Position numbers and translations under genes: made by a program. A stretch of DNA of 21,458 nucleotides from a virus. Below are positions 16,542-20,167 of this stretch, in pieces. Under the pieces are notes generated by a model. The model saw nothing but the letters and a program-made list of their open reading frames with translations, was not told where the DNA came from and ran no database searches. Position 1 is the stretch's first letter; each line of letters opens with the position of its first letter. The DNA is taken from positions 1 to 21,458 of the IMG/VR virus record IMGVR_UViG_3300009149_000346; one strand, written 5' to 3'.

Positions 16542-18143
16542 TTATCCTCCGGAAACGCCGCCACGGCTCTTGTTTTCAAGCAACATTCCAAGGAAACTGT
16601 CCTCATCAAAGAGCCTGTTTATCAGATTCCCTGCTATCTTTTCAGAGAAAGCGCTGAGGAATGATGAGGCAATGTTTCGCGACATATCTTCAAATAGTTT
16701 TTGCACGGTATCGGTGGAGAAACGAGCCTCCATGACAAAATTGGTCATAGTTCTGCTCCATTGATTTTCAAGATTCCAGGTGAAGTCCTGATAGCCAAAG
16801 TTCGGTTGAGGAGTTGTCGGAACTGCAGGTGTTGGTATTCCTGCATTTAAAGTTAAACGGGGATGGAAAGGCTCCTTTCCCATACCGAGCCCTTCTCCTC
16901 CGCTTATTCCAAGCTCAGGATATCCTAAATATCGTGGTGATGGCCCAACAAACCCGACAGGTTGTTCTGATTTTCTTCCAAGATACTCATTGAAATAATA
17001 TGCTTTTAATTCGTTTATCCTTTTTTCTTCTGCTTCAGCTGCTTTACTTTTTTCTTCTGCTTCTGCTGTCTGATAGAGACGTTTTCCTTCTTCAATACCT
17101 CGCAAATGTTTGCTGACTAATAATTGGCCTTTTGTTTTTCCCTCTGTTACCTGTAAGTATTGTTGATATCTCCTATATATATTTTCATCCCATTTTATTT
17201 GGGGCGCTGTTCCCATCATTCCATAAGGCCCGACTGGTGCTGTACTTACTTCTGGAGTCCACTTTCCGGCAGCCCATTTTTCCGCTTTCTGTTTAAATAC
17301 TTCTTTTTCCATGTTATCAAGCATAGTACCGAAAGCCTTATCAACACTTTGTATACCCGCTTTTAAAACATCAAAAGTACCGCCTTCCATCATAAGATTT
17401 CTGAATATGAACCATTTATCAGCCATCATTGAGAGTGTGCCAGTCCAGGTAGTCGCAAGGTCTTCTGTTACACCTTTGAATTTACTCCCGGCTCTTGTCC
17501 ATTCTCTCATCATTATTTCTCGTGTCTCCTCCGCCGTATAATAAACCTGAGCTTTAAATCCTAACATATTGAGAATACCGCGTTCCCGGAATAAATCGGC
17601 GGTTCTTGCTCCTGCAGAATACATCCTCACAAACTGTCCCATTGTTTCACGCATAGTAAAACCGGTAACTGCCGCAAGATCGCCAATAAGCGGAATCCAT
17701 CGCATAATCTCATCAACTCCGCCTTCCATTATTCCTGCTAATGTAGCAGCTCCTTCCATGAGATCTTCCAGTTCAAAAGGAACTGTTCTTGCATAGGCAG
17801 TCATTTCTTTAAAGAGCCGGCTGCCTTCTGCCTGTGAACCTAAGAGACTTTTAAGCCTTAACTGATATTGCTCTGCTGTATTTGCAGCATCGATGAAAGC
17901 TCCGCCTACACTCTTTATGCCCCGGTAGAGTGCATAAACACCGAAAGTCCCATAAAGTAAGTTACGGAAATTTATTTTATCAAAAGAATGTGCCGATTTC
18001 CCGGCTTTGTCCATATTAATTTTATCAAGTTGTTTCTGAATATCGGTCTGTGTTGCCTTTGAATCGGCAATAGCAGTCTTTAATTCCCTTCGGAACTGAT
18101 CACGGGCTACTCTGACAACAACTGATAACTCTGCTAAATTCAT
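16542..18143 (-). CDS. Tail tape measure protein (short)
   Basis: A 533-residue protein. Residues about 75-230 ('LRLKSLLGSQAEGSRLFKEMTAYARTVPFELEDLMEGAATLAG', then 'IPLIGDLAAVTGFTMRETMGQFVRMYSAGARTADLFRERGI') match the N-terminal domain of TMP_3-type tape measures. A helical middle with 'EEKSKAAEAEEKRINELK' and a Gly/Pro-rich spacer (400-450) follow, then a helical C-terminus. Using the general rule of about 0.15 nm per residue, tail length would be near 80 nm, so the tail is short for a siphovirus. GGAAGG precedes the ATG, which comes just after the chaperone extension's stop. No peptidoglycan hydrolase domain is visible. Confidence 0.85.
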   Translation of the reverse strand: MNLAELSVVVRVARDQFRRELKTAIADSKATQTDIQKQLDKINMDKAGKSAHSFDKINFRNLLYGTFGVYALYRGIKSVGGAFIDAANTAEQYQLRLKSLLGSQAEGSRLFKEMTAYARTVPFELEDLMEGAATLAGIMEGGVDEIMRWIPLIGDLAAVTGFTMRETMGQFVRMYSAGARTADLFRERGILNMLGFKAQVYYTAEETREIMMREWTRAGSKFKGVTEDLATTWTGTLSMMADKWFIFRNLMMEGGTFDVLKAGIQSVDKAFGTMLDNMEKEVFKQKAEKWAAGKWTPEVSTAPVGPYGMMGTAPQIKWDENIYRRYQQYLQVTEGKTKGQLLVSKHLRGIEEGKRLYQTAEAEEKSKAAEAEEKRINELKAYYFNEYLGRKSEQPVGFVGPSPRYLGYPELGISGGEGLGMGKEPFHPRLTLNAGIPTPAVPTTPQPNFGYQDFTWNLENQWSRTMTNFVMEARFSTDTVQKLFEDMSRNIASSFLSAFSEKIAGNLINRLFDEDSFLGMLLENKSRGGVSGG

Positions 18144-18145
18144 TC

Positions 18146-18864
18146 TTATTCCTTCCGATGTTCACTTATTAAATTTCTTGCTGCTGCAACCACCTTTTTA
18201 AAACATGAATCAGGATTTTTGACCTTCAAACGGTCTATTACCAATTCCACAGCCCTTAAATCAATATCAATCGCTCCCCCCATTCCTGCAAAAATCATCT
18301 GGTGTGAGCACATTAAATAAACCTCGAGGGCCTCTTTATTCTCCGGCAGTATTTCCGGGATACACTGGTCACAGGGCGGTCTCTTTTTCTTTCCTTTGTA
18401 AAGCTCCCTGCAGTCGTCACAGGGCGGCCGGCTTTTATCGAATATTCGTCCTATGACCTGAAAAAGTTTTTTAACTCCTTCTCCTCCCGCATAGCCCTCT
18501 CACTCCCGGCGATTGCAATAGCCGTGTTGACAAGCCCCGGGAACACCGGATGTTCCTTCATGAGTTTGAGTTTATTTTTCTTATTGCAGGGAATCGGTTT
18601 ATCGTTGTCATAGAGTTCAGTCCAGTCCACAATGCAATAGTCGTAAGTAAGCTCGTTAAATGTATCCTTGTCCTCATTCTTTCGGACATAAACCCTGCCG
18701 TCCCGGTAATCTTCTTCCTCTGTGGTTGTTGCTGCCAGAAATTCATCCCGCTTCTGGTTCGTGAGGGCGCGGACTGTTATCCCGCCTTCCTCTTTTTTCT
18801 TACTGGTAGGCCACAGAAAGAAAATACCCGGGTTCAAATCATTCATATTAAGCCTGAGTGCCAT
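18146..18864 (-). CDS. Tail assembly chaperone, -1 frameshift fusion (lambda G-GT-like), 239 aa
   Basis: The frame of the 137-residue chaperone reaches A AAA AAC (18466-18472) four codons before its stop. Slippage by -1 there opens a frame of 106 more codons ending in TAA at 18146-18148, with no usable ATG and ribosome binding site of its own at its beginning. Lambda and most siphophages make a small and a frameshift-extended chaperone in this place, just before the tape measure gene; both bind the tape measure during tail assembly. The extension begins LFQVIGRIFDKSRPPCDDCR and has a second PPCDQC knuckle, then a helical region to KNPDSCFKKVVAAARNLISE. The stop lies two bases before the tape measure ATG. 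Confidence 0.85.
18416..18427. repeat. 12-bp direct repeat encoding the two PPCD zinc knuckles (copy 1)
   Basis: GTCACAGGGCGG occurs here and at 18368-18379, 48 bp apart. On the minus strand both encode PPCD within the frameshift extension, giving two Cys-x2-Cys elements. This suggests an internal duplication of the knuckle. Confidence 0.7.
18451..18864 (-). CDS. Tail assembly chaperone, short (G-like) form
   Basis: A 137-residue protein lying between the tail tube and tape measure genes, the invariable place of the short tail chaperone. It is a mixed alpha/beta protein (LNPGIFFLWPTSKKKEEGGI, then ALTNQKRDEFLAATTTEEED) ending KELKNFFRS after a helix (AIAIAGSERAMREEKE). There is no clear sequence family match, as is common for these fast-evolving proteins. 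The main support is the position plus the in-frame slippery heptamer near its 3' end. GGGAGA precedes the ATG. Confidence 0.75.
   Translation of the reverse strand: MALRLNMNDLNPGIFFLWPTSKKKEEGGITVRALTNQKRDEFLAATTTEEEDYRDGRVYVRKNEDKDTFNELTYDYCIVDWTELYDNDKPIPCNKKNKLKLMKEHPVFPGLVNTAIAIAGSERAMREEKELKNFFRS
18466..18472 (-). promoter_or_regulatory. Programmed -1 frameshift slippery site A AAA AAC
   Basis: The zero-frame codons are TTA AAA AAC, so the heptamer has the exact X XXY YYZ phase. It is followed by TTT TTC AGG TCA TAG. The -1 frame is open for 321 bases beyond it. A possible stimulatory hairpin (CCCTG/CAGGG) lies further downstream, but not at the usual 5-9-base spacing. Confidence 0.85.
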
Positions 18865-18934: not shown

Positions 18935-19360
18935 TTAGGCTGCCTTTTCAAGCGTTCCGCCGCTGATTTCAACCGTGAACGAAATCGGACAGAGTCCGGA
19001 TGCATCTTTATCAGCCGACGGCCCGGAAACATTTGTTACCAATGCTGACGCGCTGGCATCGAGCTTGAAATAATCGCTTTCCCCGGCTCCGAAATAAAAC
19101 CGTATGGTATCAACTGCGGTTTTTGCAATACAGGCAGCTCTGATAACCGCTTGCCCTGTTGAATCGTCCGGATCGTAGAAACCGCTGAATGTGACGGTCC
19201 CGCCGTTGCCCCGTCCATATTCCTTGGAATCGAACTCATCCTCAAGCTCCGTTGAATCCAGAACCTGATTTGTGATGCCGGAATATTCCCATTTCCCTAT
19301 ACCGACAACTTTAGTTGTGCTGAGGGAAACCTTTCCTTTGTAACCTCTTTGTCCTGCCAT
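18935..19360 (-). CDS. Major tail tube protein, short paralogue
   Basis: A 141-residue protein of the siphovirus tail tube type. The motifs 'GKWEYSGITNQVLDSTELEDEFDSKEYG', 'TFSGFYDPDDSTGQA' and 'GPSADKDASGLCPISFTVEISGG' are shared almost word for word with the paralogue at 19484. By eye about two thirds of the positions in the first 140 residues are identical. It consists of the tube domain alone. AGGAT precedes the ATG. It lies after a large intergenic hairpin, which may adjust how much of it is made. Rings of this protein stacked along the tape measure form the tube. Confidence 0.8.
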   Translation of the reverse strand: MAGQRGYKGKVSLSTTKVVGIGKWEYSGITNQVLDSTELEDEFDSKEYGRGNGGTVTFSGFYDPDDSTGQAVIRAACIAKTAVDTIRFYFGAGESDYFKLDASASALVTNVSGPSADKDASGLCPISFTVEISGGTLEKAA

Positions 19361-19483: not shown

Positions 19484-20167
19484 TTATAAACTTCCTATTA
19501 ATGCCACAGCGTCTCCCACTGCTTCCGTTGTCAATTCGTTATCGGTATCATCAACAAGCGTGAGTACGCCTGCCGCAACTCCTCCCGTGTCGATGACAAA
19601 TTTTCTGCCATCATTAAAGGTGGATCCCTCGACAACAACATCCATTGCTGCCAGAAATCCGGCTGCTACTAACCCGCTCCCGCTGTCACTGATGAGCGGA
19701 GGCGATGCATCGGTGAATGAAATGGTGATGGCTTCCAGTATTGCTCCAGCCTTATACAATACACCATCGCTCACCTCGAGGGTGAAATTGATCGGGCATA
19801 ATCCCGAAGCGTCTTTATCGGCTGACGGACCGCCCACATTCACAACAAGGCAGGTCACATCGCCCTTGCAATAAAAGAAATCTGTCTCCAATGCCCCAAA
19901 ATATAGCCGAATATCCTGAATTTTGGTCTTGTTAATGGCTGCAGCCCTTATAATCGCTTGCCCGGTTGAATCATCCGGATCATACCAGCCACTGAATGTG
20001 ATAGTGCCTCCACTCCCCGGACCATATTCCTTGCTGTCAAATTCATCTCCGAGTTCAGTCCCGTCAAGAGTACGAATAATGATTCCGCTCGTTTCCCATT
20101 TCCCAATTTCAGCTACTTTTACCTGCCCCAACTGAACTTTGCCTTTGTATCCTTTTTCACCTGCCAT
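19484..20167 (-). CDS. Major tail tube protein, long paralogue with C-terminal beta domain
   Basis: A 227-residue protein. Residues 1-140 are a tail tube domain close to the shorter paralogue (shared KEYG, YDPDDSTGQA, GPSADKDASGLCPI). Residues 143-227 (AITISFTDASPPLISDSGSG, then AAGFLAAMDVVVEGSTFNDG and VLTLVDDTDNELTTEAVGD) are an extra beta domain of the same type as the insert in the DUF2460-like protein. Lambda gpV also carries an extra C-terminal domain on the tube surface. This one probably decorates the tail. CAGGAGG precedes the ATG. Confidence 0.8.
   Translation of the reverse strand: MAGEKGYKGKVQLGQVKVAEIGKWETSGIIIRTLDGTELGDEFDSKEYGPGSGGTITFSGWYDPDDSTGQAIIRAAAINKTKIQDIRLYFGALETDFFYCKGDVTCLVVNVGGPSADKDASGLCPINFTLEVSDGVLYKAGAILEAITISFTDASPPLISDSGSGLVAAGFLAAMDVVVEGSTFNDGRKFVIDTGGVAAGVLTLVDDTDNELTTEAVGDAVALIGSL

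Follow-up and report, generated by a model that had tools for sequence, protein, structure and literature searches.

A predicted -1 frameshift tail assembly chaperone with a putative zinc-binding four-cysteine module in its T domain, from a metagenome-derived phage record

Frameshifted tail chaperones are known from a modest number of cultured phages, and the slippery site of phage lambda, GGGAAAG, differs from the A AAA AAC considered here. What lambda G/GT and the locus described below have in common is the principle: a low-frequency -1 shift in a gene pair flanked by the tail tube and tape measure genes gives rise to a G-T fusion (PMC5009743). In synthetic constructs in E. coli, A AAA AAG shifts more readily than A AAA AAC (PMC5009743). 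For phage T1, both the tape measure chaperone and its joined product, entered as "tape measure chaperone, frameshift product", are on record (AAP49960, AAP50000.2), and T1 and T1-like phages of the Drexlerviridae such as Stevie resemble the window (the whole stretch of 21,458 nucleotides analysed here, from the IMG/VR record IMGVR_UViG_3300009149_000346) in gene order, in having A AAA AAC at the 3' end of G, in a -1 extension of the DUF1799/PHROG 680 type and in the tape measure gene on its 3' side (PMC4319613). In Acinetobacter phage Loki, AAAAAAC adjoins the chaperone stop, and a -1 fusion of gp12 and gp13 has been predicted (PMC5313236).

In the window, the zero-frame tail assembly chaperone (G) is an open reading frame of 137 amino acids at 18451..18864, on the minus strand like all window features given below, and its product matches PHROG 313, Tail assembly chaperone, with an E-value of 3.9e-7. 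Immediately 5' of it lies a tail tube gene (copy 1, 18935..19360; PHROG 158, major tail protein, E 7.3e-6), and a tandem paralog (copy 2, 19484..20167) shares 67% identity with copy 1 over 140 amino acids and carries an extra C-terminal part of about 86 residues. The tape measure protein (533 amino acids, 16542..18143; TMP_3 E 6.5e-9, PHROG 973 E 2.9e-11) is encoded immediately 3' of the extension, and profile scans assign the remaining neighbours to other siphophage tail genes. This puts the chaperone and its extension where a G/GT pair is expected, with a tail tube gene on one side and the tape measure gene on the other. Tandem tail-tube-like genes 5' of the chaperone are also present in the relatives L108 (1-522, 616-1041) and L110 (1246-1662, 1685-2101). 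Upstream of the tail tube gene, L110 (549-1244) and L111 (1043-1699) encode unrelated-looking proteins (IAIPLTYQHVP..., LAIGIPLSWPFC...) that, judged by eye, are possibly glycosyltransferases.

The slippery heptamer A AAA AAC (18466..18472, read from 18472 to 18466) stands in X XXY YYZ phase, a phase that was checked, and is followed by the four sense codons TTT TTC AGG TCA and then TAG. A -1 slip on it opens 106 codons (the extension, protein P0001, 18146..18466 with its stop; supported by open reading frame, DUF1799 match, AlphaFold2 model and structural matches) that run to TAA at 18148-18146, after which the two bases GA precede the tape measure ATG at 18143. The predicted G-T fusion has 239 amino acids and the junction peptide ...KELKNLFQVIGR. 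The preliminary description had claimed that a phased A AAA AAC precedes the chaperone stop by four codons, that the -1 frame stays open for 106 codons up to two bases before the tape measure gene and that the fusion has 239 residues, and in all three respects it agrees with the sequence. Among 4,741 in-phase codon positions of the 20 window genes, an in-phase A AAA AAC occurs at this site and nowhere else, and its 106 codons are the longest open -1 frame behind any slippery heptamer in these genes, the runner-up having 35.

The extension matches Pfam DUF1799 (PF08809) with an E-value of 3.1e-5, at 24.6 bits against a curated cut-off of 26, over P0001 residues 42-89 (18212..18355). Of the 62 aligned relatives, 54 match the same family at E<=0.01, the best at 4.8e-27. 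PHROG 680 is matched by window positions 18146-18478, and relatives match PHROG 680 and 17368. PHROGs gives both of these T-domain families the label "tail length tape measure protein", through which the DUF1799 gene has acquired a wrong name in the records of many phages. A tblastn search with a more distant extension from IMG/VR (L003) returned 716 phage records, most of those examined having the order tail tube, G, T, tape measure. Of 19 loci with this layout, the window included, 15 have T in the -1 frame behind an in-phase heptamer at the 3' end of G (AAAAAAC in 13, GGGAAAC in 2), and our script identified no site in the other four. The T-domain alignment has KKL right at the slip and then QW/Q, GxGG and LDY-like positions in common, and an invariant Asn of the G proteins is encoded by the AAC codon of the slip. 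Judged from these matches, the extension belongs to the same DUF1799 type of T domain as the annotated frameshift product of T1, and because the domain is common to both, the system is of a known kind.

Closer relatives were collected by a pattern scan of viral contigs that required AAAAAAC, two CxxC pairs and PxxLxxP; it gave 80 loci, and 76 of 81 sequences, the window included, passed the full filter, while two further ones were truncated copies. Since AAAAAAC had been demanded, this set carries no evidence on conservation of the heptamer, and a slip-blind scan, with the T-domain motif P[EPD][LI][LM]P[EDN]Nx[DEP][AIV] alone as query, was run for that purpose. It yielded 40 distinct loci, two of which begin within T at a contig edge, and in all 38 that reach upstream an in-phase slippery heptamer precedes an extension in the -1 frame (32 AAAAAAC, 3 AAATTTA, 2 AAATTTG and 1 AAAAAAA/G), with a chance expectation for in-phase AAAAAAC of about 0.13 in 36 loci. 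Automatic frame picking placed one of 36 chaperones in +1, which we take as a script artefact, as every untruncated locus is listed with an in-phase -1 heptamer. Stops breaking the -1 frame in relatives, which the preliminary description had named as grounds for refutation, were sought and none was found. In the -1 frame, dN/dS ranges from 0.05 to 0.34 (12 pairs, 75-97% identity), which indicates purifying selection. A decayed or mis-sequenced single gene with an accidentally open -1 frame could be suspected from a single metagenome-derived record, and Markov-1 simulations of the same region produced a 106-codon open frame by chance in 31 of 20,000 runs; the recurrence of junction and frame in the pattern-scan relatives and in the 38 slip-blind loci, together with the low dN/dS, refutes this explanation for practical purposes and leaves it next to no probability.

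Other observations were made during these searches. A AAT TTA or A AAT TTG replaces A AAA AAC at the same junction in L120, L124, L125, L129 and L132, five loci that form a natural series for slippery-site comparison. The clade relative L137 (2480-2818) is without the cysteines discussed below and has overlapping AAAAAAA/AAAAAAG heptamers in a run instead; in Nitratiruptor phage NrS-4 (L151, 1478-1489), the A run ending the chaperone offers AAAAAAA/AAAAAAG and is followed by a DUF1799-like frame without cysteines. Single-protein scans of viral contigs and genome contigs with P0001 retrieved no relatives, the exact peptide seeds being too narrow, and a second scan of the genome contigs found no prophage relative. 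Matches of P0001 to phages and plasmids in tblastn were weak, yet pointed to Microcystis phage MACPNOA1. A profile comparison of alignments A3 and A1 was set aside as circular, P0001 being in both.

Start codons bear on how the extension is expressed. No ATG, GTG or TTG was found 5' of the first CxxC in the window's -1 frame, and the cysteine-bearing part would therefore be reachable only via a frameshift or a rare start; the same absence holds for 26 of 35 slip-blind relatives. These counts speak against a separate gene with its own start, or re-initiation past the chaperone stop, that would yield no fusion, an arrangement suggested by the many related phages in which the DUF1799 part is annotated as its own gene from an internal start. 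Under such an arrangement the conserved KKL encoded across the heptamer, and the heptamer itself, would persist without reason, and we regard it as highly improbable.

Probable stimulatory signals flank the slip. A Shine-Dalgarno-like purine run, GGGAGGAGAAGGAG (18475..18488), lies 5' of the heptamer in the window; the best duplex it forms with the anti-SD is at -10.3 kcal/mol, where synonymous codons average -6.5. In the family (78 deduplicated sites), mean pairing with the anti-SD is -5.0 to -5.8 kcal/mol for 9-mers whose last base lies 3-7 nt ahead of the heptamer, and an upstream coding control gives -1.35. The Glu-rich protein sequence accounts for part of this signal; a synonymous-codon null, which preserves the protein, gives -5.20 +/- 0.31, and the observed best duplex, at -6.45, lies beyond 100 of 100 null sets. 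On the 3' side, the stretch +12 to +60 at the family sites is predicted to fold more stably than its synonymous variants (mean z -1.47 +/- 0.16), with no excess in regions further downstream (z 0.17 to -0.25), and the commonest spacer between heptamer and first stem in the family is 7-8 nt. A possible stem of the window, GUCAUAGG/CCUGUGAC (18416..18457, from the centroid fold), begins 8 nt past the heptamer, and as the window's own downstream fold does not differ significantly from shuffles (z 0.00), downstream structure is a family result not established for the window itself. Hairpins of the form GUAGUC-GNRA-GRCUAC occur downstream of the slip in some relatives.

These signals fit ribosomal slippage and weigh against transcriptional slippage on the A6 run as the source of the -1 product. 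The site does have six consecutive A, a homopolymer on the short side for bacterial RNA polymerase to slip on; the C that follows the run is conserved, and relatives have at the same place AAATTTA, AAATTTG or GGGAAAC, heptamers that permit a tandem slip without a long homopolymer. Transcriptional slippage is accordingly given a very low probability, if a slightly higher one than the separate gene.

An AlphaFold2 model of the extension, built with 58 window and locus sequences as input, reached a pLDDT of 96.4 and a pTM of 0.84. Among the best viral Foldseek matches are proteins of F20, Solomon, Loki and CcrColossus annotated as tape measure or tail assembly chaperones (TM 0.63-0.71, probability 1.00), but their E-values are only 0.012-0.066. 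Searches of PDB structures with the T model gave no credible match.

What sets this extension apart is a module of four cysteines, CxxC-x12-CxxC (P0001 C20, C23, C36 and C39; 18362..18421), placed just past the G-T junction and ahead of the DUF1799 core. All four cysteines are present in 58 of 58 aligned clade rows, and the 4 outgroup rows aligned with them leave all four columns empty; in the outgroup of alignment A1 (T1/HK639/cyanophage-type, n=15), 14 members have none of the four and 1 has a single one. On these alignments, the module is all four or none across relatives. The preliminary description had pointed to duplicated PPCDxC elements, and PPCDDC and PPCDQC are indeed present in the window, though the family keeps the CxxC pairs and the following P, not PPCD. 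Its term zinc knuckle is a misnomer: the CCHC pattern C-x2-C-x4-H-x4-C is absent, the actual arrangement being the C4 pattern C-x2-C-x12-C-x2-C. Scans of Pfam and PHROG named no metal-binding family for the extension.

Two CxxC pairs about 12 residues apart are a usual arrangement in zinc fingers. The all-or-none conservation of the cysteines supports metal binding, and the module is probably a structural zinc site; we infer that it would bind a single zinc ion through its four cysteines and thereby stabilise the amino-terminal half of the T domain beside the G-T junction. CxxC pairs can also serve in disulphides or Fe-S clusters, and a real frameshift with one of these uses in place of zinc is unlikely, though less so than the rival accounts of expression above, given that a phage assembly chaperone works in the reducing cytoplasm. 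A structural zinc site would most likely stabilise the start of the T domain; alternatively, the module could be part of the contact with the tail tube. A bolder proposal, which we consider doubtful, is that tailed phages of a large and mostly uncultivated group have a distinct, metal-dependent class of GT chaperone, whose T domain cannot engage the tail tube protein unless it carries a zinc module of four cysteines made by frameshifting alone.

Homology, gene order, retention of the heptamer in relatives collected slip-blind, the low dN/dS of the -1 frame and the stimulator signatures give strong support to the reading as a -1 frameshift tail chaperone, already put forward in the preliminary description. 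We consider it very probable that the locus encodes a G/GT-type frameshift chaperone, in which a slip on A AAA AAC yields a G-T fusion, G and T act as in lambda and the cysteines bind one zinc ion; from the same lines of evidence and the lambda analogy we infer the occurrence of the frameshift, its rate and the roles of G and T. The majority of ribosomes would terminate at 18451 and release the 137-residue G, and a minority would slip by -1 on A AAA AAC, probably aided by the upstream SD-like run and the downstream RNA structure, and produce the 239-residue fusion. By analogy with lambda, G would form a coat on the tape measure protein, and the scarce fusion would use its T part to recruit tail tube subunits and so start polymerisation (PMC5009743), the probable client of the T domain being tail tube copy 1. 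Both G and G-T would leave afterwards.

The slippery site, its flanking stimulators and the four-cysteine T domain persist across dozens of divergent uncultivated phages, and because gene callers skip or split the extension, its proteins are missing or mislabelled. The family supplies natural examples for work on bacterial shifting at A AAA AAC, which counts as a weak heptamer in E. coli. Should the module bind zinc, T-domain function could be probed simply, by removing the metal or by Cys-to-Ser changes. In the literature, within a coverage that was incomplete, no description of a cysteine-bearing T domain was found. The one record of this type met in the phage collection is that of Microcystis phage MACPNOA1 (KY697807), in which the chaperone ends in KN with AAAAAAC and the -1 extension contains CRECRAHGRCDGC; its CxxC pairs are x4 apart, as against x12 in the window, and its parts are annotated merely as separate hypothetical proteins. 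T1-type extensions have 0 of the 4 cysteines of the window, and their heptamer lies directly at the stop, whereas that of the window lies four codons before it. Compared with these systems, the recoded tail chaperone gene is of a well-known kind, and the C4 module within its T domain makes it a new form of that kind.
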